From the NCBI RefSeq assembly GCF_014195485.1, contig NZ_JACIBU010000001.1, positions 124,001-188,000 of the forward strand: a stretch of DNA of 64,000 nt, given 5' to 3'. The translations under genes were made by a program, and so were the position numbers. The DNA comes from Modestobacter versicolor (lineage in GTDB: Bacteria; Actinomycetota; Actinomycetes; Mycobacteriales; Geodermatophilaceae). This document shows positions 15,940-54,300 of the stretch, piece after piece. Below the pieces are notes generated by a model. The model was not told where the DNA came from. It saw nothing but the letters and a program-made list of their open reading frames with translations, and ran no database searches. How positions within the stretch are numbered: the first letter of the stretch is position 1; the number at the start of each line of letters is the position of its first letter.

Positions 15940-16110
15940 TCAGGGCAGCGCGGTCAGCCGTACCGCCCCGCTGTCGGCCGCGGGCGCCGGCGGCAGCAGC
16001 GCGACCGACGACCTGAGGTACCGCGGGCCGGTCGGCAGGCGACCGGCCGCCTGACGATGGGCGGGCAGCGGCGGGACGCTGCGGAGCAGGGGGCGGGCAG
16101 CTCGGGGCAC
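15940..16110 (-). CDS. Small basic Pro-rich protein (56 aa), putative member of the CHAT/sigma regulon
   Basis: The GTG at 16110 is preceded by GAGGAGA at ideal distance and opens a 56-codon frame rich in Pro, Arg and Leu (for example PRAARPLLRSVPPLPAH). About 60 bases further upstream lies promoter copy A of the cluster motif, in the right orientation, so the short ORF is likely to be transcribed and translated. No domain or signal peptide is recognised. Function is unknown; it could be a peptide effector, a protease substrate or a leader. A non-coding transcript from the same promoter is the alternative. Confidence 0.45.
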   Translation of the reverse strand: MPRAARPLLRSVPPLPAHRQAAGRLPTGPRYLRSSVALLPPAPAADSGAVRLTALP

Positions 16111-16170
16111 GGGGTCTCCTCGGTCGGCACGGCGGGCACGCGGCGGGGTCAGGGCCGCGCTCGGACAGAT

Positions 16171-16196
16171 GAGCGGCGCAGGGGGCCCGGTGATAC
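16171..16196 (-). promoter_or_regulatory. Cluster promoter copy A (upstream of the small ORF)
   Basis: On the minus strand GTATCA (16196-16191), a 16-base spacer and GCTC (16174-16171). The GTATCA sits in the loop of a GGGGGCCCGG/CCGGGCCCCC hairpin (16181-16208) that may also end peroxidase transcription. The 56-codon ORF starts about 60 bases downstream. It matches copies B, C and D. Confidence 0.68.
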
Positions 16197-16229
16197 ACCC
16201 GGGCCCCCGCGACTTCGGGCGTGCGCGGT

Positions 16230-17969
16230 TCAGGCCACCGGAGAGAGCCGCACCGGCTCGTCGCCCGGCGCCCGGGGGGCCGGTGCGACGGGCGCCGGGG
16301 CGGCCGTGCCGAGCGGGTTGATGACCTCGGCCCGGCCGTCGGCGGCGTGCAGCAGCAGGTCGACCATCCGGAAGGTGTCCTCGTCCGGGCCCAGCGCCGG
16401 CCGCCAGCCGGGCTCGCGCACGATCGAAGTGCAGCTGCCCTCCATCGCCCGGTGGAAGACCTCCGCCACGATCCGCGCACCCACCCCGGCCAGCCGGCCG
16501 CCGTTGAGCTCGGCCTCGCGCAGCACGTAGAACCACAGCGGCGTCCGCTCGACGAGGGCGTCGGCCTGCTCGGTGCTCAGCCCGGTGACCACGACGTCCC
16601 CGGCCCCGGTGAGGACCTGCTCCCGGGTCAGCGGCTCGACCTGCATCATCGCGGCCAGCTGCGGCCCGCTGGCCAGGTCGACCATCGCGGCGCGCTTGAG
16701 GTTGCGGAAGGCCAGGTTCCGCTGCATCGCCGTGCTCGGCGCCTCGGGGGCGCGACCGCCGAAGCTGCCGGCGGGCAGCTGGGCCAGCGGGTCGACCAGG
16801 CCGGTGTCGATGCGCTTGGCCCGGTCCGGTCCGCCGTCCGGCGTCAGCTCCGGGCGCTGGGCCTCGGCGAAGTCGTAGAGCCGGCCGAAGTCGGCGATCC
16901 AGTTGCTCGGCAGCCGCAGCGACTCCGGCGAGGCGTCCGGTTCGTCCAGCTGCTGCAGCGACAGGTTGTCCAGCGCGCCGGAGACGCCGCTGAAGGCGAA
17001 GAGCTGGAGCAGCGTCGCCGGGCCCCCCGGGCCGCCGGTGCTGAAGACCCGGTTCCACTGGTACCGGCCGCGGACCTGGCTGTGGCCGAGCCGGAACGCC
17101 GCGACCGAGAACTCGATCGGCATCGTCGGCCGGCAGGCCGGGTAGGGCGCGTCGGCCTCGAAGAACCGGCGGCCGTGGGTGAACACGTCCTCGACGACCG
17201 CGGGGTCGCAGATCCGCGGCAGGTAGTCGGTGGCCATCATCCACTGGTAGTGCCGGACGACGATCCGGCGTGCCTGCTCGAACAGGTCGTCCTCCGCGAC
17301 GCCGTCCGCGGCGAGGGTGTCGACGACCCGGTTGTGGAACCGGATGAACGCCAGGTGCGTCTGCGCGACGGCCAGGTTCTCGTCGTTGCGCGCGTCCGGG
17401 ATGAGCGGGGCGCGCTTGTCCGCCGCCGTCTGCGGCCGGGTCGGGTCGACGCCCACCCGGGGCAGGTCGAAGCCGGGCTGGTCGGCCTGCGCCACCGGGT
17501 CGGCAGGCGGGAACGGGCTGCCGGCGGTGACGCCCATCCGCAGGTGCGCGTCGCCGGAGTAGTACTTCCGGTCGTAGAGGTGCCACGGACCCCGCCCGTA
17601 CAGCGAGTCGAGGTCCAGCGTCGGCGAGCGGCCCTGCAGCAGCGCCTCGACGGTGAGCTCAGTGCCCAGCGCCTTGCCGGTGACGTCCTTGGTCAGGTCG
17701 TGGTCGACGAACTGGCCGAGGTAGGTGTAGCCGGCCGGCACACCGTCGGCGTCGGCGTGCTCGACGGTGGGCGCGGTCATCGCCTCGGCGACCGCCTGCA
17801 GCACGGCGTCGTCCAGGTCGGCACCGCCCTGCGGGCCGAGCCGGGAGAACTGGAACCGGCGTTCCCGCTCCACCGTGGTGGGCCGGCGGCGGCACGGCGC
17901 GCCCTGCCCGTCCTGGCCGACGATCCCCTCGCCGACGACGTGGTACTCCTCCTGCGCGTGACGGTGCAC
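16230..17969 (-). CDS. Animal-type haem peroxidase (peroxinectin/cyclooxygenase superfamily)
   Basis: A 579-residue protein. The distal haem motif is GQFVDHDLT with the histidine at about residue 90, and the proximal histidine is in FRLGHSQVRG at about residue 294, where this family keeps it. HNRVVDTL matches the conserved helix between them. The C-terminal segment LNGGRLAGVGARIVAEVFH is typical. There is no signal peptide, so it acts in the cytosol or is exported by another route. A GTG at 17969 preceded by GGAGGAG is the best start; an ATG at 17984 is possible. It lies behind promoter copy B, directly downstream of the S8 protease gene. Oxidation of a substrate such as lipid, phenol or halide is expected from the family; the real one is unknown. 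Confidence 0.9.
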   Translation of the reverse strand: MHRHAQEEYHVVGEGIVGQDGQGAPCRRRPTTVERERRFQFSRLGPQGGADLDDAVLQAVAEAMTAPTVEHADADGVPAGYTYLGQFVDHDLTKDVTGKALGTELTVEALLQGRSPTLDLDSLYGRGPWHLYDRKYYSGDAHLRMGVTAGSPFPPADPVAQADQPGFDLPRVGVDPTRPQTAADKRAPLIPDARNDENLAVAQTHLAFIRFHNRVVDTLAADGVAEDDLFEQARRIVVRHYQWMMATDYLPRICDPAVVEDVFTHGRRFFEADAPYPACRPTMPIEFSVAAFRLGHSQVRGRYQWNRVFSTGGPGGPATLLQLFAFSGVSGALDNLSLQQLDEPDASPESLRLPSNWIADFGRLYDFAEAQRPELTPDGGPDRAKRIDTGLVDPLAQLPAGSFGGRAPEAPSTAMQRNLAFRNLKRAAMVDLASGPQLAAMMQVEPLTREQVLTGAGDVVVTGLSTEQADALVERTPLWFYVLREAELNGGRLAGVGARIVAEVFHRAMEGSCTSIVREPGWRPALGPDEDTFRMVDLLLHAADGRAEVINPLGTAAPAPVAPAPRAPGDEPVRLSPVA

Positions 17970-18027
17970 GGTGCTCTCCTCCATCGGGTCGCTGGACGCG
18001 GCGGGGGCACGGCCGCGCTGCAGAGGA

Positions 18028-18053
18028 GAGCGCCGCGGCCCGCCCGGTGATAC
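18028..18053 (-). promoter_or_regulatory. Cluster promoter copy B (upstream of the peroxidase)
   Basis: Minus-strand GTATCA (18053-18048), a 16-base spacer and GCTCTCC beginning at 18031. It is about 60 bases upstream of the peroxidase GTG. The -35-like block lies in a CCGCCCG/CGGGCGG inverted repeat (18040-18059). Confidence 0.7.
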
Positions 18054-18071
18054 GGGCGGACCGCGGTGGGT

Positions 18072-19217
18072 TCAGGCGGCGGTCGGGGCGGCCTGCTGCT
18101 GGTCCCAGGTGGCCAGCCGGACCACCGGGACGGCCGGGACGGCGCCGTCGGGACGGGTCCACCCGGAGGAGTACGCGCCGCTGCGCAGCGCCGCGACGGC
18201 CTCCTTCGCGGTGAGCGGCCGGCGACCGGTCATCAGCCGGGCGATCGCGCCCGCGGCGACGGCGGCGGCGAACGACGTCCCCGACCACCGGGCCCAGCCC
18301 TCGTAGCGCAGCTGCTCGCCGTCGGTGGTGGCGACCGTGCCCTCGACGAACGTGCTGACCAGCCGGGACCCGGGTGCGGCCAGGTCGACCCAGCGGCCGC
18401 GGTTGCTCCACTCCGCCCACCGCGTCGACGTGGGCGTCTCCACGGCACCCACCGCGACGACGTCGCGCAGCGCGGCCGGCCAGAAGTCCTCCGGCGTCGC
18501 CGGCTCGCCCGGGCCGCCGAGGTTGCCCGCGGCGGCGACGACCACCATCTCCGGGCTCACCGCGTGCAGGTCGTCGACCAGCTGCTGCATGACCTCGCGG
18601 GAGTTCGGGTCGTCGGCGAAGCAGCCCAGCGACAGGTTCAGCACCTGCACCCCGCGCCGGGCCAGGGTCATCGCCGCCTCGGCGACCTGGCTGGACAGCG
18701 CCTCGCCGGTCGGGCCGAGCGCCCGCTCCACCCAGACGCCGGCGGCGGGGGCCTGCTGGAGCACCAGCCCGGCGATGAACGTGCCGTGCCCGACCTCGAG
18801 CGGCTCGGTCGGGCCGGCGCCGTCGCCGGCGGCGGGGTGCGGCTCGAAGTCCGACGGTGCGGACAGGTAGCCGCCGGCCAGCCACGGGTGCGGCTGCACA
18901 CCGGTGTCGACCGTGCCGACCAGCACGCCCTCGCCGGTCCACGCGCCACCGGGGGAGTCGCGGCGGTCGCGCAGCTGGGCGCGGGTGGGCATCGGTGCAC
19001 CCTCGCCGCGCATGTGCATCGGTGCGCCGGAGACCGGCACGGCCATGACCCGGTCCTCGTCCACCCCCGTGCAGCGCTCCCGCGCCGAGGCGTAGACGGC
19101 GTCGGGCAGGTCGATCCGGCGGAGCCCGCCGGTACCGACGGACGTCCAGCCGTCGCGCCGGCCGATCACGTCCCGGACGAGCGGGACGGCGCGGTCGACG
19201 ACGAGGAGTGCGGGCAC
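18072..19217 (-). CDS. S8 (subtilisin-like) serine protease, no signal peptide
   Basis: A 381-residue protein with the subtilase triad in order: Asp in VGTVDTGVQ (~102), His in GHGTFIAG (~143) and Ser in SGTSFAAAVAAG (~312); AAAGNLGG supplies the oxyanion asparagine. The GTG at 19217 preceded by GGAGG gives a ~100-residue N-terminal region that could be a propeptide or sensor but has no hydrophobic signal sequence, so a cytosolic role is likely. The open frame continues upstream, but the Shine-Dalgarno and promoter copy C favour this start. It is divergent from the CHAT protease gene. The pairing of an intracellular subtilase with a CHAT protease and a sigma factor suggests a proteolytic signalling or execution pathway. 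Confidence 0.9.
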   Translation of the reverse strand: MPALLVVDRAVPLVRDVIGRRDGWTSVGTGGLRRIDLPDAVYASARERCTGVDEDRVMAVPVSGAPMHMRGEGAPMPTRAQLRDRRDSPGGAWTGEGVLVGTVDTGVQPHPWLAGGYLSAPSDFEPHPAAGDGAGPTEPLEVGHGTFIAGLVLQQAPAAGVWVERALGPTGEALSSQVAEAAMTLARRGVQVLNLSLGCFADDPNSREVMQQLVDDLHAVSPEMVVVAAAGNLGGPGEPATPEDFWPAALRDVVAVGAVETPTSTRWAEWSNRGRWVDLAAPGSRLVSTFVEGTVATTDGEQLRYEGWARWSGTSFAAAVAAGAIARLMTGRRPLTAKEAVAALRSGAYSSGWTRPDGAVPAVPVVRLATWDQQQAAPTAA

Positions 19218-19349
19218 GGGGACCTCCGGGGTCTCGAGGGGTGGGGGAGACGTCGGCTGCCACCGTGGCACCGGGGGCCTCGTCACCGGGGGAACGGCGG
19301 CGTGGCACGTGCCGGTGCCACGGGGCAGGCCGGGTCGTGCGCGAGGGAA

Positions 19350-19374
19350 GAGCGACGAGATCGGCCGCTGATAC
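19350..19374 (-). promoter_or_regulatory. Cluster promoter copy C (upstream of the S8 protease)
   Basis: Minus-strand GTATCA (19374-19369), a 15-base spacer and GCTCTTCC beginning at 19353. It sits in the CHAT/S8 divergent space with a predicted 5' leader of about 125 bases before the S8 GTG. Confidence 0.7.
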
Positions 19375-19378
19375 ACCG

Positions 19379-19407
19379 GTGACCGAACCGCGCGCGACCC
19401 CTACGCT
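19379..19407 (+). promoter_or_regulatory. Housekeeping-like promoter of the CHAT gene
   Basis: GTGACC (19379-19384), exactly 17 bases, then TACGCT (19402-19407) fits a sigma70-like promoter with a TANNNT -10. It points at the CHAT gene 30 bases away. The GTATCA motif is not found in this orientation, so CHAT seems to be driven separately from the rest of the cluster. Confidence 0.45.
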
Positions 19408-19436
19408 CGGCGGCACCCCCGTCCCCTGGAGAGGTG

Positions 19437-22043
19437 ATGACCGCAGCGCGCACGCTCGCCGAGCAGGCGCTGCGGGAGTACCTCGCCGACCCGGTGGCCG
19501 GACGGGCCGCGGCGACCCGGGCGCGGGACGAGGCGCTGGCCGAGCGGGACTGGTCGACGGCGTCGCTCGCCGAGCGCGTGCTGGCGCTGATCGCCGGTCA
19601 CCTCGCCGACAGCGTCGCCGCCCAGCGGCACGGCGAGGCCGCCGTACGGCACGGCACGCGGGCCGGCGACGCCGGGGCGGTGGCGCTGGCGCGGGCCGAC
19701 CTCGCCTACGTGCACGCCCGCTGCGGGCGCACCCAGGCGGCGCTGCGCGAGCTCGCCCGGGTGCCGGACGTCCCGGGCCCGGACGCCGGCAGCCTGCTGA
19801 TGAAGCGCGCGCTGGCCCTGGAGACCCTCGGCCGCTGGAACGCCGCGCTGGAGACCTACGAGCGGGCGCTGCGCGTCGTCCGGAGGTCCGGCGACGGGCA
19901 GGAGCTGGGCCTCCTGCTGGCCAACCGGGGCGTGCTGCACATCCGGCTCGGCCGGGCCGGCGCGGCCGAGCACGACTTCCTGGAGGCCGACGCGCTGCTG
20001 GCGACCGTCGGCTCCGGCATGCACCGCACGATCGTCCAGCACAACCTCGGCTACGTCGCCGCGCTGCGGGGCCACGTACCGCTCGCGCTGTCCCGCTACG
20101 ACGACGCCGAGCGCGGCTACCTGGAGCACCGCGAGGTCCCGCTCGAGCTGTGGATGGACCGCTGCGAGCTGCTGCTCGCCGCCGGTCTCGGTGCCGAGGC
20201 GCGGGCGGCCGCGCAGCGGGCCGTCGAGCTGGCCACCGCGCGCCGCGAGCCGGCCGAGCTGGCCGAGGCCCGGCTCCGGCTGGCCCAGGCGGCCCTGGCC
20301 GACGGCGACCCGGCGGCCGCCCAGGACCTCGCCGACTCCGCCGCCCGCGCGCTGTCCCGGCAGCGGCGGCCCGGCTGGGCGGCGCTGGCGTACTGGACCC
20401 GGCTGCAGGCCTGCGCCGTCCAGCAGCCGGACGGCGTCGACGTGCCGCTGCTGCGCCGGGCGGCCACCCGGCTGGAGCGGGCCGGCTGGCCGGGCACCGC
20501 GCTGGAGGCCCGGCTGCAGGCGGCGCAGGTGGCGCTGGCCCTCGGCCGCCGGGACACCGCGCTGGCCGACCTGGCGCAGGTCCGGGCGGCGCGCTCGACC
20601 GGCCCGGTCTGGCACCGGCAGCTGGGCTGGCACGCCGAGGCGCTGCACCGGCTGTCCACCGGCGACCGCACCGGTGCGCTGCGGGCGGCGGCCCGCGGCA
20701 TCGCCCTGGTCGACGAGCACCGGGCCACCCTCGGCGCCACCGACCTGCGGGCGGCGGCCTCCGGGCGGGCCGAGGCCCTCGCCGCCCTCGGGCTGGAGCT
20801 GGCCGTGGCCGGGGGCCGGGCGGAGACGGTGTGGTGCTGGACAGAGCGCACCCGGGCCGCGGCGCTGCTCCGGCCGCCGGCGCAGCCCCGCGACACCGAG
20901 GACGTCGAGACCGACCTCGCCGAGCTGCGTGCCCTGGTCCGGCAGCACCAGCAGGCGGCGCAGGCCGCCGAGCCCGACCCGGCGCTGGTGCGCCGCCAGG
21001 TGCAGCTGGAGGAGCGCATCCGGCGGGCTCCCCGCCGGGCCGACGGCGACGGCGGGCCGGGGCAGCGGTTCGAGCCGCGGCAGGTGCTCGCCGCGCTGGG
21101 GGAGCGGGCGCTCGTCGAGTTCGCCGTCGTCGACGGCCGGCTGACCGCGGTGGTCGCCGTCGCCGGTCGGGTCCGGGTGCACCGGCTGGGGCCGGTCGAC
21201 GCGGTCGCCCGGGAGATGCACCACCTGTTCTTCGCGCTGCGGCGGATGGCCGGGCCGGTGGCCGGGCCGGGGCTGCGGAGCCGGCTGGCCACGGCGGCCG
21301 CCCGGATCGACGCCGCGGTGCTCGCGCCGCTGGCCGCGGAGTTCGGTGACCGCGACCTCGTCGTCGTCCCCACCCAGCCGCTGCACGCGCTGCCCTGGTC
21401 GGTGCTGCCCTCCTGCCGGGGCCGGGCGGTGTCCGTGGCGCCGTCGGCTGCGCTCTGGCTCACCGCGACCGGCCGCCCGATGCCGGCCGGCGGGCGCACC
21501 GTGCTGGTGGCCGGGCCGGACCTCGTGCACGCCGAGCTGGAGGTCAAGGAGCTGGCCGAGCTGCACCCGGGCGCCACGGTGCTCACCGGCGACCGGGCCC
21601 GGGTCGCCGACGTGCTCACCGCGACGGCCGGCGCCGCGCTGGTGCACCTGGCCGCGCACGGCCGCTTCCGGGCCGACGCCCCGCAGTTCTCCGCGCTCGA
21701 CCTGGCCGACGGTCCGCTCACCGGGCACGACGTCGAGCGGCTGCCGGTGGCCCCGGGGTGCGCCGTGCTGTCGGCCTGCGAGACCGGCACGACCGCCGTC
21801 CTGGCCGGCGGCGAGCTGCTCGGGCTGGCCGCCTCGCTGCTCGCGATCGGCGTGCGCACGGTGATCGCCCCGGTGCTCCAGGTGCCCGACGCGGAGACCG
21901 CCCCGCTGATGACCGGGCTGCACTCCGGGCTCCGGGCCGGGCAGCCGGCCGCGGCCGCGCTCGCCGCGGCGGCCGAGCGGGCGGCGGCGGGTTCCGACGC
22001 CGACGCCGCCACCGCGGCGGCCTTCATCTGCGTGGGTGCGTGA
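19437..22043 (+). CDS. CHAT-domain (caspase-like) protease with TPR-like N-terminus
   Basis: An 868-residue protein. Residues ~1-450 are tandem helical hairpins of TPR type (for example GRWNAALETYERALRVVRR, LLANRGVLHIRLGRAGAAEH); ~460-560 is a charged linker; ~560-868 is a CHAT domain (caspase-HetF associated with TPRs). The catalytic dyad is clear: His741 in VHLAAHGRF and Cys781 in VLSACETGTT. CHAT enzymes are cysteine proteases, including Craspase of type III-E CRISPR, and their TPRs usually receive the activating signal. The ATG at 19437 has GGAG five bases upstream; a GTG at 19434 is adjacent. The gene overlaps the promoter and possible start of the sigma gene, so sigma can also be read from this transcript. 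Confidence 0.93.
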   Translation: MTAARTLAEQALREYLADPVAGRAAATRARDEALAERDWSTASLAERVLALIAGHLADSVAAQRHGEAAVRHGTRAGDAGAVALARADLAYVHARCGRTQAALRELARVPDVPGPDAGSLLMKRALALETLGRWNAALETYERALRVVRRSGDGQELGLLLANRGVLHIRLGRAGAAEHDFLEADALLATVGSGMHRTIVQHNLGYVAALRGHVPLALSRYDDAERGYLEHREVPLELWMDRCELLLAAGLGAEARAAAQRAVELATARREPAELAEARLRLAQAALADGDPAAAQDLADSAARALSRQRRPGWAALAYWTRLQACAVQQPDGVDVPLLRRAATRLERAGWPGTALEARLQAAQVALALGRRDTALADLAQVRAARSTGPVWHRQLGWHAEALHRLSTGDRTGALRAAARGIALVDEHRATLGATDLRAAASGRAEALAALGLELAVAGGRAETVWCWTERTRAAALLRPPAQPRDTEDVETDLAELRALVRQHQQAAQAAEPDPALVRRQVQLEERIRRAPRRADGDGGPGQRFEPRQVLAALGERALVEFAVVDGRLTAVVAVAGRVRVHRLGPVDAVAREMHHLFFALRRMAGPVAGPGLRSRLATAAARIDAAVLAPLAAEFGDRDLVVVPTQPLHALPWSVLPSCRGRAVSVAPSAALWLTATGRPMPAGGRTVLVAGPDLVHAELEVKELAELHPGATVLTGDRARVADVLTATAGAALVHLAAHGRFRADAPQFSALDLADGPLTGHDVERLPVAPGCAVLSACETGTTAVLAGGELLGLAASLLAIGVRTVIAPVLQVPDAETAPLMTGLHSGLRAGQPAAAALAAAAERAAAGSDADAATAAAFICVGA

Positions 22044-22048
22044 CCGGT

Positions 22049-22073
22049 GTATCAACCGGCGCCCCCGCTGCTC
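22049..22073 (+). promoter_or_regulatory. Cluster promoter copy D (upstream of the sigma factor)
   Basis: Plus-strand GTATCA (22049-22054), a 15-base spacer and GCTCTCC starting at 22070. It overlaps the end of the CHAT gene and points at the sigma gene. A transcript starting six to nine bases after GCTC would begin near the GTG at 22082, giving a leaderless or near-leaderless mRNA. Confidence 0.7.
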
Positions 22074-22081
22074 TCCTCGTC

Positions 22082-22693
22082 GTGCAGACAGCTCCCGACC
22101 CGCCGCCGCGCGCGGCCTGGCTCGTGACCGCGCCGGAGGTCTCGACGGCGGACCTGGTCCGGGCTGCCGCCACCGGCGACCGCGGCGCCTGGGACACGCT
22201 GGTCGGGCGGTACGCCGGGCTGGTCTGGTCGGTGGCCCGCGGCCACCGGCTGCAGGGGGAGGACGCCGCCGACGTCTTCCAGACGACCTGGCTGCGGCTG
22301 GTCGAGCAGTTGCCGCGGATCCGCGAGCCCGAGCGGGTCGGCGCCTGGCTGGCCACCACCGCGCGGCGGGAGTGCCTGCGGGTGCTGCGCCGGTCGGGCC
22401 GGGAGACCGTGAGCCGGGCCGAGGTGCTGGAGGCGGTGCCCGACGACGTGCCGGGGTTCGACGAGAGCCTGGTGCGGGCTGAGCAGCGAGAGGCCCTGTG
22501 GCACCACCTGCAGACGTCGTCCGACCGGTGCCGGCGGCTGCTGCGAGTGCTGGTCGCCGACCCGCCGCTGAGCTACACGGAGGTGGCGGAGGTGCTGGAG
22601 ATGCCGATCGGCAGCATCGGGCCGACCCGGCGCCGCTGCCTGGAGCAGCTGCGCCGGCGGCTGGAGGAGGCGGGCGTCGATGTCGACCTCTGA
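22082..22693 (+). CDS. ECF-type RNA polymerase sigma factor
   Basis: A 203-residue protein with region 2 (ADLVRAAATGDRGAWDTLVG, then AADVFQTTWLRLVEQL) and region 4 helix-turn-helix (YTEVAEVLEMPIGSIGPTRR). There is no region 3, as in group IV/ECF factors. Several starts are possible: GTG 22082 (chosen, at the predicted transcription start of promoter D), GTG 22040 overlapping the CHAT stop as GTGA, and GTG 22124. It probably recognises the GTATCA/GCTC promoters in front of the S8, peroxidase and small-ORF genes as well as its own, which would make it autoregulatory. The following small gene overlaps its 3' end by 14 bases. Confidence 0.9.
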   Translation: MQTAPDPPPRAAWLVTAPEVSTADLVRAAATGDRGAWDTLVGRYAGLVWSVARGHRLQGEDAADVFQTTWLRLVEQLPRIREPERVGAWLATTARRECLRVLRRSGRETVSRAEVLEAVPDDVPGFDESLVRAEQREALWHHLQTSSDRCRRLLRVLVADPPLSYTEVAEVLEMPIGSIGPTRRRCLEQLRRRLEEAGVDVDL

Positions 22694-23138
22694 CCTGCCC
22701 GACGACGAGCTGGTGCGCCGGCTCGCCCGCGCCGTCGCCGTCCACGACCCGGTGCCGCCCGAGCTGCTCGCCTTCGCCCGCGAGGCGTTCACCTGGCGCA
22801 CGGTCGACGCCGAGCTGGCCGAGCTGGTCGCCGACTCCCGCGAGACCGCCGGCGCCGGGCTGCGCGGGCCGTCCGACGTCCGGCTGCTCACCTTCAGCGC
22901 CGGCGACCAGCAGCTGGACCTCGAGCTGCTCGTCGACGGCGCCACCCGGCGGCTGGTGGGGGAGCTGACCCCGGCCGGCCCGGCGCACGTCGTCGTCGAG
23001 CACGCGGGCGGCACGCTGACCGAGGACGCCGACGAGCTCGGCCGGTTCCTGGTGGCCGGCGTCCCGCCCGGCCGGATCCGCGTGCGCTGCGAGCCGGCCG
23101 GCGGCACCGCGGTCGTCACGCCCTGGCTGGACGACTGA
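22680..23138 (+). CDS. Uncharacterised sigma-linked protein, candidate anti-sigma or CHAT substrate
   Basis: A 152-residue protein starting inside the sigma gene (14-base overlap), so the two are made together. The N-terminal ~55 residues are helical (DDELVRRLARAVAVHDPVPP), and the C-terminal half is predicted beta-rich (QQLDLELLVDGATRRLVGEL, then GRFLVAGVPPGRIRVRC), like a small beta-sandwich. It has no transmembrane segment and no ZAS zinc motif, so it is not a classical anti-sigma. The tight coupling makes an anti-sigma, sigma adaptor or protease-cleavable partner the natural hypothesis. No family name is assigned with confidence. Confidence 0.75.
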   Translation: MSTSDLPDDELVRRLARAVAVHDPVPPELLAFAREAFTWRTVDAELAELVADSRETAGAGLRGPSDVRLLTFSAGDQQLDLELLVDGATRRLVGELTPAGPAHVVVEHAGGTLTEDADELGRFLVAGVPPGRIRVRCEPAGGTAVVTPWLDD

Positions 23139-27152: not shown

Positions 27153-30100
27153 TCAGGCGGTGACCAGGCCGTTCGGCTGCTCGGTGAGCCGGCCGCGGGC
27201 GACGGTCGCGACGAGCGCGGCCTCGAGCAGCGGGAGCAGCGCCGGGGTGCGGCGCCGATACCCGAACACCTCGAGCGTGCGCAGGTGCAGCTCGTCGCGG
27301 GCCATGCCGGCGCTGGCCCGGCAGAGCGCGACCATGGCGTTGCCGATCTCCTCCGGCGCGACCTGGTCCAGCGGCCGGTCGGCGCTGGTGGCCTGACGGC
27401 GGAAGAACGTCCAGGTCTCGCGGTCCAGCCCGGGCGGCCACACGAAGTCGCCGTCGGCCGTCGCGTTCTTCGGCAGCAGCGCGAGCAGCGCGTCGCGCCG
27501 GGCCTCGGTGACCCGGGTGAGACCGAACGCGGCCGCGGTCAGCCGGGTGAGCCGGTCGCGGTGCACCGGGCCCTCGGCCTTGACCCCGGCGGTCAGCACC
27601 CGGCGCACCAGCCGGGCGACGGCGGGGTCGGACAGCTGGTCGAGCTGCTTCTTCACCCCGGCCGGCTTTGGCGCCCAGGGGAAGAACGGCAGCTCCTCGT
27701 CCAGCGGCGCGGCCACCGTCGTGGCCGGGGCCTTCGGAGCGGCCTTGCGGGGAGCAGGCGGCGCCGGGACGGCGGCCGGCTCGGGCTCGACCACGGCGAC
27801 GGGCTCGGGCTCGGTGGGCTCGGGCTCCACGGCGGCGACGGGCTCGGGCTCCACGACGACGGGCTCGACCACGGTGACCGGCTCGACGACAGCGACAGGC
27901 TCCACCGGCGCGGGGCGCAGCTGGATGACGTCAGCGAGCGGGCCGTCGTAGGCGGGCTCGGGCTCCACCGCGGCCGGCTCGGGCTCCGGGGTGATGGGCT
28001 CGGTCGGCTCAGCAGCGGTCGGCTCAGCAGCGGCGGGCTCAGCAGCCGACTCGACGGCGGCCGGGCCCGGGGACACGGCCTGCACGGTCGCGACCAGCCG
28101 GTCCAGCACCTCGTCGCGCTCGGCCAGCCAGGTGGGCAGCCAGACCCGCTCGACCGCCGGCCAGCGCAGCAGCTCGCCGAGCACCTCGACCGGCAGGCCG
28201 TCGCGGTCGCCGACCGTCTTCCGCCGCGCCCAGGCGGGGCCGTCGAGCAGCACCGCGAGCAGCGGGGCGTCCGGGGCCTCGGTGCGGGCGACGGTCAGGT
28301 CGACCCGGAAGTCCGACAGCCCGACGTCCGTGCGCACCACCAGCCCGCGCTCGCGCAGCGCGGCGGCGATCTCGTCGCGGTGCCGGTCGCGGGCACCGGC
28401 GGCCCGCGGCGGACGCGGCAGCGCGTCGGCGCCGAGCGCGGCCACGTCCAGGTAGGCGCGCAGGTGCTTGATGCCCACCGAGGCGGTCTCCTCGGCGCGC
28501 AGCTGCTCGGGGTCGAAGGAGGTGAAGACCACGACCTGGCGGCGGGCCCGGGTGATCGCCACGTTGAGCCGCCGCTCGCCCCCGCTGCGGTTCAGCGGGC
28601 CGAAGTTCAGCGGCAGCCGGCCGGAGCGGTCGGGGCTGAAGCCGGTGGAGAACAGCACGACGTCCCGCTCGTCGCCCTGCACGTTCTCCAGGTTCTTCAC
28701 GAACAGGCCCTCGCCGTCGCTGCGGTCCAGCGCCTCGGTCACCCGCTCGTCGCCGGAGTCGCGCAGCAGCGTCTCGATGAGGGTCCGCTGCGGCGCGTTG
28801 AAGGTGACCACGCCGATCGAGGGGACGGCGGAGCCGGCCAGCGAGAAGCGGTGCAGCACCTCGGCGACGACCGCCTGCGCCTCGACCGGGTTGGTGCGCA
28901 GGCCCGGGCCCGAGCGCAGGAAGGTGCCCTCGACCCGGACCAGCGAGACGCCGCGGCCGTCGGGGCCGGGGGAGGACGGGCCGTGCACCGGCGCCGGGAA
29001 CGAGGACAGCCGGTTCTCGTAGTACTGGGCGTTGCTGAAGGCGATCAGCGTCTCGTCCTGGCTGCGGTAGTGCCAGGACAGCCACTGCCGGGGCACGCGC
29101 GCCTGCACGCACTCGGACAGGATGCTCTCCTCGTCGGGCACGGCGTCCTCGCCGGTGCCCTCGACCGCCTCGGCCGAGGCGTCGTCGTCGGAGCCGGTCG
29201 ACTCACCGAAGCTCGTCGGCGGCATCTGCTTGCTGTCGCCGACGACGACCGCGGCGTGCGCCCGGCCCAGCGCGCCCACCGCGTCGGCCACCCGGATCTG
29301 CGAGGCCTCGTCGAACACGACCAGGTCGAACAGCCCGGCGGTGGCGGGGAAGAAGCGGGCCACCGAGTCGGGGCTGACCAGCACGCACGGCATGACGGCG
29401 GTGACCAGCTCGCCGTAGGTCGACAGCAGCCCGCGCACGCCCAGCCCGCGACGCTGCTTGCCCAGCTCGCGCTGCAGCGCGCCGACCTGGCCGTTGCCGG
29501 TGGCGGCGTCGAACGGCCGGGCGGCGAGCACCCCGGCGGGCAGCGCGGCGGTCAGGTGCGAGCGGACCGCGCGGGAGGCGGCGGCGAAGCGGTTGATGGT
29601 GCGCTCGTGCAGCCCGGCGTCGAAGGCGTCCAGGCCGGTGGCCGCCAGCCGCTCGGCCACCGACGCCTCGGCCAGCCCGCGGTCGAAGGCGCGCACCGCG
29701 TCGTCTGCCCGCACCAGGCCGTTGCGCAGCCGGCTGCGGGCCTCGACGAGCCCGGCCAGCCGGAGCGGCTCGAGGGTGTCCAGCAGGCTCACCCAGCGCC
29801 GCAGCGACATCGGGTGCACGTACTCCACCCCGCGCTCCGGGCGGGTCATCGTCCAGCGCAGCACCAGCCCGTGCTCGCCGCACCAGGCGGCGAGCAGCTC
29901 GGAGTCGCTGGAGCAGGCGGTGAGCAGGTGGGTGACGGCGTCCCGGAGCTTGGCGACGACCCGCGCGCTGGAGGCGTCGGCGACCGGCCCGGCGGCCAGG
30001 AACCGGCGCAGCGCACCGGCGAAGCCGGACGTCCCGTCGACGGAGGCGGCCGCTCGGCGCAGCCAGCGCATCTCGGCGTCCAGCACGAACCGGCCGCCAT

Positions 30101-33100
30101 CGGTGAACGGGTTCCACGACGCGGGCACCTGCAGCCCCGGGACGGTCGCCGCGCGGGCGGCGATCCCGTGCACCGCGGCCTGCACGCGGCCCAGCGACTC
30201 CAGCAGCGCCGGCACCTCGCGGGGCTTGAGCGAGGAGCCGGGCAGCAGCACCGGGGTGAGCTCGTCGCGCAGCGCGGCGAGCTGACCCCGTCGGGCCCAC
30301 CAGCCGGCGTCCGAGGCCGCCTGCGCCCGGGCGGCCAGGTCCGCCAGCGGCAGCGTGAGCGCCTCGGGGCCGACCACCTCGAACGACGGGTGCAGCGCAC
30401 CGGTCAGCGCCGCGACCTCGCCGGACACGTCGGCGGTGGCCGCCGCCCAGCGCTGGGTGCGCACCTCGTCGAGCACGTCGAGCCCCACCCGGGGCCCGGC
30501 GAGCAGGTGCACCAGGGCGTCGAGCTCCTCCGGCGTCCGGGCGGCGCGCACCGCGGCGGCCAGCCCGCCCTCGCCGGGCACGTCGCGCACCGCGGTGTCG
30601 ACGGCGACCGCCGCCTGCTGCACCTCGGTGATGTCGATGTCGATGGTGTCCAGGAAGCCCCAGGCGTGGCCGGCCGAGGGGCGGGCCAGGTCGGCGATGT
30701 CGGGCAGCAGCGCGAGCGCGCGGCGGACGGCGGTCACCACGTCCGCGTCCGCGCGGCCGGCGAAGGCGGCGGTGACCGGCAGGGCGTCGATGCCCTCGCC
30801 GGCGGCCAGCACGGCGGTGCGCGCCGAGTAGAACGACAGCCCGGCCGGGTTCAGGGCGTGCAGCCGCTCGGCGTAGCGCTCCAGGCTGCGGGAGGCCGAG
30901 CGCAGGTCCTCCGCGTCGGCGGCTAGCCCCTGGTCGTCGACCTCCACCGCGTGCTCGAGCGCCGCGCGGATCTGCGCCCGGACGACGGCCGGCCGGCTGC
31001 CCTTGTCGTGCAGGTCCAGCGCGAACGGCCCCATGCCCACCGCGTCCAGCCGGCGGGCGACGACGTCGAGGGCGGCCCGCTTCTCCGCGACGAACAGCAC
31101 CCGTTTGCCCTCGGCGACCGCGCGGGTGAGCAGGTTGGTGATGGTCTGCGACTTGCCGGTGCCGGGCGGGCCCTCGAGCACGAACGTGCGCCCGGCCAGC
31201 GCCTCGGCGACGGCCCGCAGCTGCGAGGCGTCGGCGGGCACGGGGCACTGCGCGGCCAGCTCGTCGAGGTCGACGCTCCCCGCGGTGTCCGGTGCCGGGT
31301 CGGCGAACGGCTCGTCGGGGTCGGTCAGCAGGTGGGCGACGAGCGGGTTGGCGGCGAACTCCGACCAGTGCTCGTCCAGGTCCTTCCAGAGCCGGAACTT
31401 GGCGAACTGGAGGACGGCGAGGTCCGCGGTCGACTCGACCCGCCAGGGCAGCTGGTGCTCGGCCAGCACCGTGCGCACCGCTTGCAGCGCCGCGGTCAGG
31501 TCGATGCCGGCGCCGTCCTCGGCCGGTGCGGCCAGGCCGGGCACGCTGAGGCCGTGCAGCTGGCGGAGCTTCTCCAGCAGGCACCAGTTGGGGGTGGCCG
31601 CGCCGGCCTCGTCGGCGGTGAGCCGGTAGGCCCCGGTGCGCGAGGCGGGGGTCAGCACGACGGGCACCAGCACCAGCGGCGAGCGCAGCGGGCGGCCGTC
31701 GAGCTCCCAGACCAGGCTGCCCAGGGCCAGGTAGAGGTTGTTGGCGCCGGTCTCCTCGACCACGGTGCGGGCCCGGTGGGCCAGCCCGCGCAGTCGCGGC
31801 AGGTAGCCGGCCTCCGGGACGTCGACGTGCACCGACCGGCGCTCGGTCAGCAGCTCGGTCAGCTGCTGGGGCGGCAGGTCGCGGGCCGAGCGCAGCCCCC
31901 GCTCCACCTGCACGCCGGCGATCCGGTCGCCGGGCAGCAGGGTGACCGTCGCCCCGTTGCCGACCAGGTCCTCGAGCGTGGCGAGGGCGTCGTGCGGCAC
32001 GGTGAGCGGCAGCCCGGAGCGCTCGGTGTAGTTGATCAGCCGGTTGCGCAGGCTGAGGTCGAGCAGCGCGTTCTTCCACTGCTGCACCCGGGCCGGGGCC
32101 TGGGGGGCGGCGTCCGGCGCCGGGGCGGCCGGCCGGGCCGGCTCGTGCGCCGGGGCGCTGTGCTCGGCCGGCCGGTACTCCACCACGTGCACGGTGCCCT
32201 CGTCGTCGCGGGTGCGGGCCGGCAGCGGCAGCACGCCGTCGCGCCGGGCGCGGTGGACGTCGGTGACGCCCAGGACCCGGGAGAGGTCGCCGGACAGCCA
32301 GGCGTAGGCCGGGCCGTGCAGGTCGGTGCGGGTGTCGCCGCGGTCGGTGAGCAGCGTCGTCTCGACCAGCCGGACCAGGCCCAGGTCGACGAGGTTCACC
32401 AGGGCGGAGACGTCGGTGGTGGCGGCGGTCTCGGCGCTGCGCTCCTCGCGCCAGTAGCCGAGGAAGGCGTGGCCCTCGACGATCCAGAGCAGCGGGCGGA
32501 TGCCGGCCTGCTCGAAGGCGGCGGCCAGGGTGACCACGGTGTCCAGGCAGGTGCCCACCCGGCCGTCGAGGACCTCGCCGGGGGTGCGGACCTGCTGGCC
32601 GGTCTCGCCCCAGCTGGCCGGCGGCTCGCTGTAGCGGATGCCGCGCCGGCGGACGGCCCAGGTGAGCGCCTCGGCCACCTCGTCGACGCGCTCGGCGTCG
32701 TCGGCGTACCCGGCCATGCTGCCGCTGCCGGTGCCCTCCTCGAGCAGCTCGGCGGCCTCGGCCAGCAGGGCCTGCACGGCGGGGTGGTTGGGCTGGACGT
32801 GCGCGGCGAGCATCTCCAGCGCGAGCGGCAGGGGGGTGGCCAGCCACTGGGCGGCGGCCAGCACCTGCACCGGGACCCGCTGCTCGGCCAGCACCCGCCC
32901 GTCGGCCACCAGCTCGACCCGCACCGAGCCCGGGCGCGGTTCCTCCAGCTGCAGCATCGCGGCCGGGTCGAGGGTCAGGCCGACGTCGTTGAGCACCGTG
33001 GTCTGCCCGGCGTCCAGGTCGACCAGCCGCTCGACGCCGGCGCCGATCGCGCCCTCGGCGTCGGCCACGGACAGCCGGAGGGTGGCGCCGCGCAGGGTCG

Positions 33101-33260
33101 CGGTGCCGCTGGTCAGCGTGACCCGGGAGACCACCGGGACCGCGTTGTGGGCGAGCGCGTAGCTCACCACCGGGGTGGCCGTGACGTCGACCGAGACGAC
33201 CGGAGACGACGGTGGCACCGGGCCCTCGGTTGCCCACTGCAGGTCGGCGGCGTTCCCCAT
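27153..33260 (-). CDS. DUF4011 - SF1 helicase - Vsr-like nuclease - DUF3320 protein (Hhe-like defence protein)
   Basis: A 2035-residue multidomain protein. Residues ~225-290 look transglutaminase-like (GTCLDTVVTLAAAF, Cys ~238; EGHAFLGYW, His ~264). DUF4011 begins near 390 (QWKNALLDLSLRNRLINY). The SF1 helicase has Walker A GPPGTGKSQTI (~695), Walker B VVFDEASQI (~1316), GDSKQMPPTSF, WHYRSQDE, NVQGDERDVVLFS and RRLNVAITRARR (~1566). A Vsr-like PD-(D/E)xK segment follows (FRVDLTV, LLAVLLDG), then a ~130-residue Pro/Glu/Val-rich linker and DUF3320 near 1880. Single proteins with this domain order have been reported as phage-defence proteins (named Hhe, from memory). It lies alone between two terminators; no partner gene is evident. 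Confidence 0.9.
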   Translation of the reverse strand: MGNAADLQWATEGPVPPSSPVVSVDVTATPVVSYALAHNAVPVVSRVTLTSGTATLRGATLRLSVADAEGAIGAGVERLVDLDAGQTTVLNDVGLTLDPAAMLQLEEPRPGSVRVELVADGRVLAEQRVPVQVLAAAQWLATPLPLALEMLAAHVQPNHPAVQALLAEAAELLEEGTGSGSMAGYADDAERVDEVAEALTWAVRRRGIRYSEPPASWGETGQQVRTPGEVLDGRVGTCLDTVVTLAAAFEQAGIRPLLWIVEGHAFLGYWREERSAETAATTDVSALVNLVDLGLVRLVETTLLTDRGDTRTDLHGPAYAWLSGDLSRVLGVTDVHRARRDGVLPLPARTRDDEGTVHVVEYRPAEHSAPAHEPARPAAPAPDAAPQAPARVQQWKNALLDLSLRNRLINYTERSGLPLTVPHDALATLEDLVGNGATVTLLPGDRIAGVQVERGLRSARDLPPQQLTELLTERRSVHVDVPEAGYLPRLRGLAHRARTVVEETGANNLYLALGSLVWELDGRPLRSPLVLVPVVLTPASRTGAYRLTADEAGAATPNWCLLEKLRQLHGLSVPGLAAPAEDGAGIDLTAALQAVRTVLAEHQLPWRVESTADLAVLQFAKFRLWKDLDEHWSEFAANPLVAHLLTDPDEPFADPAPDTAGSVDLDELAAQCPVPADASQLRAVAEALAGRTFVLEGPPGTGKSQTITNLLTRAVAEGKRVLFVAEKRAALDVVARRLDAVGMGPFALDLHDKGSRPAVVRAQIRAALEHAVEVDDQGLAADAEDLRSASRSLERYAERLHALNPAGLSFYSARTAVLAAGEGIDALPVTAAFAGRADADVVTAVRRALALLPDIADLARPSAGHAWGFLDTIDIDITEVQQAAVAVDTAVRDVPGEGGLAAAVRAARTPEELDALVHLLAGPRVGLDVLDEVRTQRWAAATADVSGEVAALTGALHPSFEVVGPEALTLPLADLAARAQAASDAGWWARRGQLAALRDELTPVLLPGSSLKPREVPALLESLGRVQAAVHGIAARAATVPGLQVPASWNPFTDGGRFVLDAEMRWLRRAAASVDGTSGFAGALRRFLAAGPVADASSARVVAKLRDAVTHLLTACSSDSELLAAWCGEHGLVLRWTMTRPERGVEYVHPMSLRRWVSLLDTLEPLRLAGLVEARSRLRNGLVRADDAVRAFDRGLAEASVAERLAATGLDAFDAGLHERTINRFAAASRAVRSHLTAALPAGVLAARPFDAATGNGQVGALQRELGKQRRGLGVRGLLSTYGELVTAVMPCVLVSPDSVARFFPATAGLFDLVVFDEASQIRVADAVGALGRAHAAVVVGDSKQMPPTSFGESTGSDDDASAEAVEGTGEDAVPDEESILSECVQARVPRQWLSWHYRSQDETLIAFSNAQYYENRLSSFPAPVHGPSSPGPDGRGVSLVRVEGTFLRSGPGLRTNPVEAQAVVAEVLHRFSLAGSAVPSIGVVTFNAPQRTLIETLLRDSGDERVTEALDRSDGEGLFVKNLENVQGDERDVVLFSTGFSPDRSGRLPLNFGPLNRSGGERRLNVAITRARRQVVVFTSFDPEQLRAEETASVGIKHLRAYLDVAALGADALPRPPRAAGARDRHRDEIAAALRERGLVVRTDVGLSDFRVDLTVARTEAPDAPLLAVLLDGPAWARRKTVGDRDGLPVEVLGELLRWPAVERVWLPTWLAERDEVLDRLVATVQAVSPGPAAVESAAEPAAAEPTAAEPTEPITPEPEPAAVEPEPAYDGPLADVIQLRPAPVEPVAVVEPVTVVEPVVVEPEPVAAVEPEPTEPEPVAVVEPEPAAVPAPPAPRKAAPKAPATTVAAPLDEELPFFPWAPKPAGVKKQLDQLSDPAVARLVRRVLTAGVKAEGPVHRDRLTRLTAAAFGLTRVTEARRDALLALLPKNATADGDFVWPPGLDRETWTFFRRQATSADRPLDQVAPEEIGNAMVALCRASAGMARDELHLRTLEVFGYRRRTPALLPLLEAALVATVARGRLTEQPNGLVTA

Positions 33261-46714: not shown

Positions 46715-46769
46715 GGGCAGCGGGGCTCAGGGCAGCGGGGCTCAGGGCAGCGGGGCTCAGGGCAGCGGG
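46715..46769. repeat. 15-bp tandem repeat (3.7 copies) at a convergent gene junction
   Basis: GGGCAGCGGGGCTCA at 46715-46729, 46730-46744 and 46745-46759, with a partial copy GGGCAGCGGG to 46769. The minus-strand small gene stops (TCA, 46757-46759) in the third copy, so earlier copies repeat its last codons and stop downstream. The pattern resembles the one at 335-410. Confidence 0.9.
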
Positions 46770-51397: not shown

Positions 51398-54300
51398 GTG
51401 TACGAGTCCGACGCCGCACTGGTCGTCAGCGCCAGCGACCTGACCGGCTTCCTGGAGTGCGAGCACCTCACCCGGCTCTCCCTCGAGGTCGCCCGGGGCC
51501 TCCGGTCCCGGCCCGCGGCGGTCGACCCGATGACCCAGCTGGTCGCCCAGCACGGCATCGACCACGAGGCCCGGCACGTCCAGCGGCTGCGCGACCGCGG
51601 GCTGTCGGTCGTCGAGATCGACGCACCGACCGGCAAGGACGCCGCCGGGCTGCGCCGCGCCCAGGCCGACACCCTCGCCGCGATGCGGGCCGGCGCCGAT
51701 GTCGTCTACCAGGCCACCTTCTTCGACGGCACGTGGCGCGGGCACGCCGACTTCCTGCTCAAGCGCACCGACCGGGCCAGCGACCTCGGCCCGTGGGCCT
51801 ACGACGTCGCCGACACCAAGCTCGCCCGGCGGATCAAGGTCCCGGCGCTGCTGCAGATGGCGCTCTACGGCGACCTCCTGGCCGGCCTCCAGGGCGTGCC
51901 CCCGGAGCTGCTCACCGTGGTCACCGGCGACCAGCAGGAGCTGGTGTTCCGCTACTCCGACGCCGAGGCCTACGCCCGGGCGGCCCGCGACCGCTTCCAG
52001 CAGCGGCTGGCCGACGGCGAGCTGGCCGCGCCCTACCCCAACGCGCACTGCGGCGTGTGCCCCTGGCGGGAGACCTGCACGGCCCGCTGGGAGGAGGAGG
52101 ACTCGCTGTCGCTGGTCGCCTTCATGCGCCGCGACCACGCCACCGCGCTGGCCGAGGCCGGCATCACCACGGTCGCCGAGCTGGCCGCCCGCCGTCCCGA
52201 GGAGCTGCCCGACGCGGTCGGCCGCACCTCCCGGGAGCGGCTCACCCAGCAGGCGCGGCTCCAGCTCGCCGAGCGGGTGACCGGCGCCCCCTCCTACGAG
52301 TTCCTGCCCCGCGAGCACGGCCGGGGCTTCGAGCTGCTGCCCCCGCCCAGCCGGGGCGACCTGTTCTTCGACATCGAGGGCGACCCGTTCGCCGGCGACG
52401 CGGGCCTCGAGTACCTCTGGGGCGTGCTGGACACCGCCGGGGAGTTCACCGCCTTCTGGGGCTGCGACCCGGCGGCCGCCGACCAGTCCGCGGCCGAGCG
52501 GGCCGCGTTCGAGGCCCTCGTCGACCACCTGAGCGCGGTGCACGCCGCCGACCCGTCGATGCACGTCTTCCACTACGCGCCGTACGAGCCGACCCGGCTC
52601 AAGACGCTCTCCGCGCGGCTCCAGACCCGCGAGGCCGAGGTCGACCGGCTGCTCCGGGCCGACGTGCTGGTCGACCTGTACGCGGTGGTCCGCCAGGGGC
52701 TGCGGCTGAGCAAGGCGTCGTACTCCATCAAGCAGGTCGAGGACTTCTACCGCGGCCACACCCGGGCCCACGACGAGGAGGTCTCCGACGCGGGCGAGAG
52801 CATCGTCGCCTTCGAGCGATGGCTGGCCACCCGCGACCAGGCCCTGCTGGACCAGATCGAGGCCTACAACCGCGACGACTGCGTCTCCACCCGCGAGCTG
52901 CGCGACTGGCTGGAGGGGCGGCGCACCGAGCTGCTCGCGTCCGGCGCGCTGCTGCGCCGGCCCGAGGACGGCGACCCGGACGGCTCCGCGGAGAACGCCG
53001 CGGCCCAGGGGCTGCGCGAGGAGCTCGAGCAGCGGCTGGTCGCCGACCTGCCCGACACCGGTCGCACGCCCGAGCAGGAGGCGACCTGGCTGCTCGCCCA
53101 GCAGCTGGGCTGGCACGCCCGCGAGGCGCGGTCGGCGTGGTGGGAGTACTTCCGGCTGCGCGACCTGCCGGCCGACGAGCTCGAGCGGGAGACCGCCGCC
53201 CTCGGTCCGCTGGAGGGGCCGGAGCTGGTCGGTGCGGACAAGCGGTCCCAGCACTGGCGGTACCGCTTCCCGCCGCAGGAGACCAAGGTGTCGGCCGGCA
53301 GCCGGTTCGAGCACCTGCTGCCCGCCGCCGACGGCACCCGGATCACCAGCTCGGTGGTGGAGGTCGACCCCACGGCCGGCTGGGTGGTGCTCTCCCGCGG
53401 CAGCAGCTCACCGCACGACCACCCGACCGGGCTGCTGCCCACGTCGCCGCCGAGCGACAGGCTGTTCCGGGCGGCGCTGCACGACCTCGGCGAGCAGGTG
53501 GCCGGCTGCGGGGTCGACGGGCCCGGTCCGTGGCGGGCGGCCCGCGACCTGCTGCTGCGCCGGCCACCACGGCTCGCCGCCGGCACCGCGCTGCGGCTCC
53601 CGGGCGAGGGGGCCGCCGAAGCCGTCCGTCGGCTGGCCGGCCGGCTCGACGGTGGGGTCCTCGCCGTGCAGGGCCCGCCCGGGGCGGGCAAGACCTACAC
53701 CGGTGCCCGGGCCGTCGTCGACCTGGTCCGCGCCGGCAAGCGGGTGGGGCTGACCGCCTCCAGCCACAAGGTGATCGGCAACCTGCTCGACGCGGTGATG
53801 GCCGCGGCCCGTGAGGCGGGCGTGCCCGTCCGCGCCCTGCAGAAGGCCGACGACCTGCAGCGGTGCAGCGACGCCGACGTGCAGTGCGTGGGCAGCAACG
53901 GGCAGGTCGTCGACGCCCTCGACGGCGGCGACGTCGACCTGGTGGCCGGCACCTCCTGGCTGTTCGCCCGGCCCGACCTGGCCGGGCGGCTCGACGTGCT
54001 GGTCGTAGACGAGGCCGGCCAGCTGTCGCTGGCGAACACCCTGGCGGTCAGCCGCGCGGCGGCGAACCTGGTGCTGCTCGGCGACCCGCAGCAGCTGCGC
54101 CAGCCCGGCCGCGGCATCCACCCCGACGGCGCCGACGTCTCGGCGCTGCAGCACGTGCTCGGCGACGACGAGGTGCTCACCGACGACCGCGGCGTCTTCC
54201 TCGACCGCAGCTGGCGGATGGCCCCGGCGCTGTGCCGGGTGGTCTCCGAGCTCTCCTACCGCGGCGAGCTGCAGCCCGCGCCGGTGACCGCGGGCAACGC

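Follow-up and report, generated by a model that had tools for sequence, protein, structure and literature searches.

Extracytoplasmic function (ECF) sigma factors of group ECF54 are described, in the passage that PMC8999054 devotes to them, as having CHAT, subtilase and 'carboxypeptidase' neighbours, with SFT86700.1 from Geodermatophilus amargosae as the model protein. The same passage regards the group as regulated by proteolysis without an anti-sigma factor and proposes, with no experiment reported there, that peptidases degrade the sigma factor and hold it inactive. In type III-E CRISPR systems, according to the section of PMC10028731 on which we draw, Csx29 cuts Csx30, Csx30 binds CASP-sigma and cleavage relieves inhibition. 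Here we describe a locus from Modestobacter versicolor in which five genes, encoding a haem peroxidase, an S8 subtilase, a TPR-CHAT protease, an ECF sigma factor and a 152-aa small protein, stand intact and adjacent. It lies in a 64,000-nt stretch of DNA (GCF_014195485.1, NZ_JACIBU010000001.1 positions 124,001-188,000) that we call the window and within which all coordinates are given. Modestobacter belongs to the Geodermatophilaceae. Comparative genomics supports a four-gene module, a promoter-like element, the sense orientation of that element and its predicted targets. The genes of the locus very probably act as one circuit, and very probably the sigma factor would control itself, the small protein, the subtilase and the peroxidase, with CHAT standing upstream. 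That this circuit is a protease-gated ECF sigma switch is a reading that, taken whole, has in our judgement an even chance of being correct.

The locus shares the ECF54 context of CHAT, subtilase and carboxypeptidase-type proteins. Its sigma factor (189 aa, 22124..22693, plus strand; TIGR02937 E=4e-22, scored on the longer reading frame 21758-22693) consists of regions 2 and 4 (sigma2-sigma4) and has no long C-terminal extension, TIGR02937 reaching near the C-terminus, which is the layout that we deduce for ECF54 from the passage in PMC8999054. The model protein of that passage comes from the Geodermatophilaceae, and Modestobacter, of that family, supplies the nearest named small proteins. Judged from gene context and domain layout, the sigma factor is a probable member of ECF54. 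The association of sigma, CHAT and subtilase is partly pre-empted by that passage and the wiring by the element is, to our knowledge, the new part. Our literature search returned no other account of the circuit; the primary ECF54 sources (Casas-Pastor 2021, Huang 2015) lay outside it and may list a promoter.

The evidence for this wiring is a bipartite element, GTATCA-N16/17-CTC, first spotted by eye in upstream DNA, that recurs in sense orientation upstream of genes in these loci. The base before GTATCA varies (often T or G, C at the peroxidase), the second half reads CTCT or CTCC, and the spacing is 16 or 17 nt at 31 of 32 module-gene sites, the core letters being set by the search pattern. 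In the window the element forms a predicted promoter at -69 of the peroxidase (GTATCA-N17-CTCT, 18027..18053, minus strand, counted from the ATG), at -157 of the subtilase (GTATCA-N16-CTCT, 19349..19374, minus strand, in the intergenic region between the divergent S8 and CHAT genes) and at -75 of sigma (GTATCA-N16-CTCT, 22049..22074, plus strand), where it would make the sigma-small pair autoregulatory. The pattern GTATCA-N14..17-CTCY occurs six times in the 4.59-Mb genome, three of them in the module, with no match to the reversed control; in a related genome, G017, three of four copies are in the module. Sites were listed in full for these two genomes and for sets of 12 and 10 genomes. Over our panel of 117 related genomes, complete per-genome totals (part of the listed sites were fetched) amount to 405 for the pattern and 119 for its reversed control where the small protein is present, and to 287 and 262, respectively, where it is absent.

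Gene models came from a codon-based gene caller and domains from Pfam and NCBIfam. In the 51 discovery loci (the window and 50 stretches fetched around small-protein matches, some ending at short contigs), the sense element preceded 12 of 37 S8, 9 of 39 sigma, 11 of 48 small-protein and one of two peroxidase genes, none of 42 CHAT genes and 23 of 525 others. Antisense copies preceded one S8, two sigma, 13 CHAT and six other genes, those at CHAT because of the divergent S8 promoters. Since the element had been found by eye in these loci, we tested the same pattern, with a slightly shorter upstream region, on 38 fresh named loci (Nocardioides, Saccharothrix, Pseudonocardia, Cellulomonas, Kineococcus and others). 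Only three of these align over more than 800 nt with the 50 fetched loci, the largest alignments at 72-79% identity; loci of the same genus are not independent. Here the sense element preceded 22 of 40 sigma, 7 of 34 S8, 3 of 36 small-protein, 0 of 33 CHAT and 9 of 401 other genes, with no match to the reversed pattern (Fisher p=6e-16); the strict form gave 9/40, 7/34, 2/36, 0/33 and 9/401, respectively (p=2.5e-7). All nine of the other genes look like regulon members: eight, in seven loci, form one family of about 128 aa, found beside sigma in Nocardioides and a related metagenome-assembled genome, and the ninth encodes a caspase and neighbours the module in Kineococcus. Antisense matches stood before nine sigma genes, one CHAT and nine others, most of them because the ~128-aa family adjoins sigma with an element of its own. 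Because the sense element is absent from CHAT (0/42, 0/33) but present at sigma-small, S8 and peroxidase, the layout would be that of an upstream sensor-protease, a self-amplifying sigma factor with its co-made antagonist, and downstream effectors.

The element also led to genes away from the module. In two genomes, G101 (sigma-small) and G076 (small protein), neither CHAT nor S8 is near the module, and a motif scan found S8 on another contig, beside CHAT in both. In G101 this S8 lies 126 kb into a contig of 992 kb, and the 3.4 Mb hold three strict matches, two of which are those of sigma and this S8. Of the 117 genomes, 20 have a peroxidase homologue (E<=1e-20). The element lies at most 70 nt before the gene in three of them, all with the small protein (the window, -69; G029, -64; G031, -51), and in the draft assemblies of the latter two the element-bearing peroxidase is on a contig other than that of the module. 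No element at a fitting distance preceded the peroxidase in the other nine genomes with the small protein (in G067 the upstream DNA is missing) or in the eight without it; one fragment had no called gene. In G017 a copy of the element (L095 5937-5962) stands about 18 nt past the S8 stop, matching the place of the window's peroxidase promoter, and is followed by hairpin-like sequence, with no peroxidase, remnant or other gene found behind it; apparently it is the scar of a lost peroxidase, or the promoter preceded the peroxidase. An initial annotation of this DNA had proposed the sigma factor as the activator of a second protease and a peroxidase, and the common element, the fresh loci and the other contigs support that idea in silico. 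Its further suggestion of a stress, developmental or suicide programme gains no support from these data.

Homologues of the small protein are found in 42 of the 117 genomes. Labels by hidden Markov models (HMMs) in the 51 discovery loci number 47 for the small protein, 39 for CHAT, 37 for sigma, 33 for S8 and two for the peroxidase. The set of sigma, small protein, CHAT and S8 is complete in 26 of the 51 discovery and 30 of the 38 fresh loci, and since all four are present in 56 of 89 loci, their co-occurrence across Actinomycetota exceeds chance. Gene order is shuffled among loci, with two recurrent arrangements: S8 and CHAT are head to head in 51 of 58 adjacent pairs, and sigma precedes the small gene in 64 of 70, the remaining six being convergent; 58 of those 64 overlap or lie within 20 nt of each other. 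The peroxidase is at the module in only two of 51 stretches and about 11 kb distant in a third genome, G009. The five-gene neighbourhood of the initial annotation is therefore conserved as four genes, the peroxidase not being a constant member. Variants of the small protein (133 aa) stand behind two sigma-like genes in L076, L077 and L078, with no CHAT or S8 labelled nearby and the element at -125 of the small gene.

Domain searches and residue positions bear out the identities first assigned to the five proteins. The TPR-CHAT protease (868 aa, 19437..22043, plus strand; Pfam CHAT E=2.2e-33) is single-copy in its genome, and its His741 and Cys781 are conserved almost without exception (99-100% of 70-71 relatives), as is Asp104 of the subtilase (99-100%). 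Its AlphaFold2 model (predicted local distance difference test, pLDDT, 92.3) has helical repeats from residue 3 and a Craspase/Csx29- and separase-like fold, and by structure superposition it shares the fold of the type III-E TPR-CHAT protease. The subtilase (381 aa, 18072..19217, minus strand, GTG start with GGAGG upstream; Pfam Peptidase_S8 E=9.1e-32), a predicted sigma target, has its triad Asp104/His144/Ser315 in place. The other predicted target in the window, the animal-type peroxidase (584 aa, 16230..17984, minus strand; Pfam An_peroxidase E=9.5e-20), has lactoperoxidase and myeloperoxidase as solved relatives and agrees with the An_peroxidase definition, with Gln91/His95 in a distal-type and His301 in a proximal-type motif, residues that we presume to play the corresponding distal and proximal roles. 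Neither enzyme had been credited with a signal peptide; N-terminal hydropathy over 15 residues, the means by which we judged the window's proteins, agrees for the peroxidase (maximum 0.09, not hydrophobic) and less clearly for the subtilase, which is moderately hydrophobic (1.41). The sigma factor has five other matches in its genome, all distant (best E=1.7e-9, 36% identity). A 56-codon open reading frame (19283-19453, minus strand) that had been counted into the system is probably not a gene, since its codon-position GC (0.74/0.77/0.72) has no coding signature and its best tblastn match in 88 related loci has E=0.32.

The small protein (22680..23138, plus strand), a candidate anti-sigma factor and protease substrate, overlaps sigma by 14 nt and its window sequence has no Pfam or NCBIfam match at 1e-3. 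Its AlphaFold2 model (56 homologues, mean pLDDT 84.8) has helices at 8-22 and 27-56, a stretch at 58-64 with pLDDT below 50 and seven strands within 69-139, consistent with a helical domain, a disordered linker (58-64) and a beta-sandwich (69-139). The helix at 33-53 (AFTWRTVDAELAELVxDS) is strongly conserved. CarboxypepD_reg, a non-catalytic domain, matches the sandwich in 26 of 56 small proteins at E<=0.1 (best 1.4e-6), and we think that the sandwich is the 'carboxypeptidase' of the ECF54 literature. Within the linker, whose length varies, Arg62 (codon 22863..22865, plus strand) is arginine in 99% of 193 homologues with a residue there, near-identical ones included (195 sequences form 112 clusters at 70%), and remains so in 110 of the 111 left by thinning at 70% identity; Val precedes it in 71% and Gly, Ser or Ala follows in about 95%. 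An exposed, near-invariant arginine with small residues after it resembles a protease site, and Arg62 is the candidate cleavage site in the linker. Separase, the eukaryotic cohesin protease, cuts after arginine. Given that CHAT folds like Csx29 and separase, the conserved linker arginine suggests that CHAT may be the enzyme that cuts there.

We propose that TPR-CHAT would be made independently of sigma and would await a signal sensed via its TPR half, while the small protein would hold sigma through its conserved N-terminal helices. Once triggered, CHAT would cut the small protein after Arg62, the helices would part from the beta-sandwich and sigma would be freed to bind GTATCA-N16/17-CTC promoters, activating the subtilase and haem peroxidase genes together with its own operon. 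We infer that this sigma factor reads the element, and likewise infer the binding of the small protein to sigma, the linker cut, the protease that makes it, the trigger and the physiological outcome.

Several alternatives share parts of this scheme. The subtilase could be the cutting protease, removing the small protein or sigma within the same regulon and so being both output and feedback. S8 itself carries the element, and PMC8999054, in its ECF54 passage, has peptidases keeping such sigma factors inactive by degradation. CHAT, however, is the one component outside the regulon (0/42, 0/33), as expected of something upstream, and the linker arginine fits an enzyme with the specificity of separase; we hold this account possible, though not probable. 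A near-invariant exposed arginine in a disordered loop would equally suit an inhibitor or pseudosubstrate, with the Arg62 loop sitting in the active site of CHAT or S8 and sigma set by its own transcription only, but the link of the small gene is with sigma, which it follows in 64 of 70 adjacent pairs, and the two occur together in full-length stretches without CHAT or S8 (L033, L076-L078), so that we think this arrangement unlikely. The step from motif to this particular sigma factor is our own deduction, which leaves room for another regulator that owns the motif, the cluster being a mere hotspot. Yet an excess of the motif is confined to genomes that have the small protein, the motif sits in an autoregulatory position with a -35/-10-like spacing of 16-17 nt at 31 of 32 sites, and it led to S8 on another contig, and we consider a foreign regulator highly improbable. 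CHAT might also act without proteolysis, as an anti-sigma factor or scaffold in the manner of DdvA, which the entries PDB 8rot and 8rw5 present as a CHAT-domain anti-sigma factor and whose TPR-CHAT-type architecture is like that of the window CHAT. Those entries are titled as transmembrane, whereas CHAT is apparently soluble: its most hydrophobic stretch (788-814; highest 19-residue hydropathy 1.95) lies in the protease core, the repeats begin at residue 3, and the catalytic pair is kept in nearly every relative. A non-proteolytic role is accordingly very unlikely.

Against the protease-gated switch itself weigh a number of observations. No recognisable copy of the element precedes 18 of 40 sigma and 27 of 34 S8 genes in the fresh loci, nine of the 40 sigma genes have an antisense copy, mostly in a region shared with a divergent gene, and the discovery counts come from the loci in which the motif was spotted. 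Among the 12 genomes in which a peroxidase homologue and the small protein are both present, only three have the element before the peroxidase. The assemblies concerned are drafts, and the separate contigs of G076, G029 and G031 may be linked (in G076 at about 10 kb or more); the module contig of G031 is 3.8 kb. At Arg62 there are two exceptions with His, and two further ones that are truncated gene models, and corresponding arginines are kept in L076-L078, which lack CHAT nearby, so that conservation may serve binding. For the N-terminal helices no anti-sigma family scores above noise, RsdA_SigD_bd reaching E=0.027 in one of 56 small proteins. Finally, PMC10028731, in the section considered here, places the Csx29 cut in Csx30 between residues 427 and 429 and names no arginine.

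Beyond the module, we took 203 distinct sites from 174 stretches and clustered the 141 genes located 20-260 nt downstream of them, 62 sites having no fitting gene; the counts are descriptive and not a test, because the stretches were mostly chosen for module or motif. The families are sigma (29), S8 (21), small protein (9), the ~128-aa family (8), SARP/BTAD regulators (4), LuxR-type regulators (4), proteins of 62-85 aa (4), haem peroxidase (3), a DoxX-related family (3; Pfam DoxX in one of two scanned), a metalloprotease-like family (3, by eye; no Pfam match in the one scanned), a ~115-aa family (2), IDO-cytochrome b5 (2), PAP2/DUF6851 (2), which we take to be haloperoxidase-like, and numerous singletons, which include a DyP peroxidase (Pfam). 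Redox enzymes and proteases recur among element-linked genes, and candidate outputs across genomes are haem peroxidase, IDO-cytochrome b5 haem dioxygenase, haloperoxidase-like PAP2, DyP peroxidase, subtilisin, caspase and, by eye, a metalloprotease-like protein. The ~128-aa proteins (L132, L139, L141, L144, L148, L150 and L152) start MTW.ETH or similar, have the element at about -80 and gave no Pfam match in the two scanned; the caspase (Peptidase_C14) of Kineococcus indalonis (L126 8338-9165, minus strand) has it at -42. A fourth plausible promoter in the M. versicolor genome lies 75 nt before a 111-aa reading frame without Pfam match (L092 3329-3739, C1 ~2117 kb). Around the module copy of another genome (L096-L098, G046:C54, ~262-316 kb) there are ten strict matches in 34 kb, near genes for an acyltransferase-carrier protein (Pfam) and, judged by eye, for a transporter-like protein and a 1971-aa protein with a ketoreductase-like start, possibly a biosynthetic cluster controlled by sigma.

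Elsewhere the window encodes a 2035-aa protein (27153-33260, minus strand) with DUF4011, AAA helicase parts, an MTES_1575 nuclease and DUF3320, to our eye a helicase-nuclease of the anti-phage-defence kind, and an 1147-aa protein (51398-54841, plus strand) with an RNase H-like nuclease and AAA helicase parts. Short tandem repeats lie at 330-416 (period 29 nt) and 46715-46769 (period 15 nt).

How does this locus relate to the systems that it resembles? Relative to ECF54 as outlined in PMC8999054, we propose that the 'carboxypeptidase' is a non-enzymatic antagonist and CHAT an activator, and we add an element and targets that include a haem peroxidase; the proposal for the group comprises a promoter element with its targets, a protease placed upstream and a candidate antagonist in which a single scissile bond is predicted. 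The parallel with type III-E CASP is functional: its TPR-CHAT has the same fold, but its partner, Csx30, has 565 aa as against 152 here, and a search of the small-protein profile gave no match among solved chains at E<=1, Csx30 sequences not being compared directly. The locus is not itself a type III-E CASP system, because the window showed no CRISPR-like repeats, and scanning 15 of its 58 genes revealed no Cas domain. The neighbourhoods of EACC2-caspases that PMC8195603 describes include TPR genes and share with this locus the idea of coupling an ECF sigma factor to proteases of caspase type; by that description they differ in their EACC2, TRADD-N and DUF1822 partners. Separase, whose protease domain superposes with that of the window CHAT at 2.9-3.0 Å over 303-313 residues, likewise joins a helical-repeat arm to a caspase-like protease, but is not known to have a sigma link. 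In its fullest form, which we regard as conceivable but doubtful, our proposal is that actinobacteria have a separase-like protease/sigma switch, free of CRISPR and thrown by one linker-arginine cut, that sets off a programme of oxidation and proteolysis. If true, it would be a bacterial counterpart of the caspase-triggered, myeloperoxidase-plus-serine-protease response, and sigma release gated by TPR-CHAT proteases would be general among bacteria, with CRISPR type III-E as one version of it.

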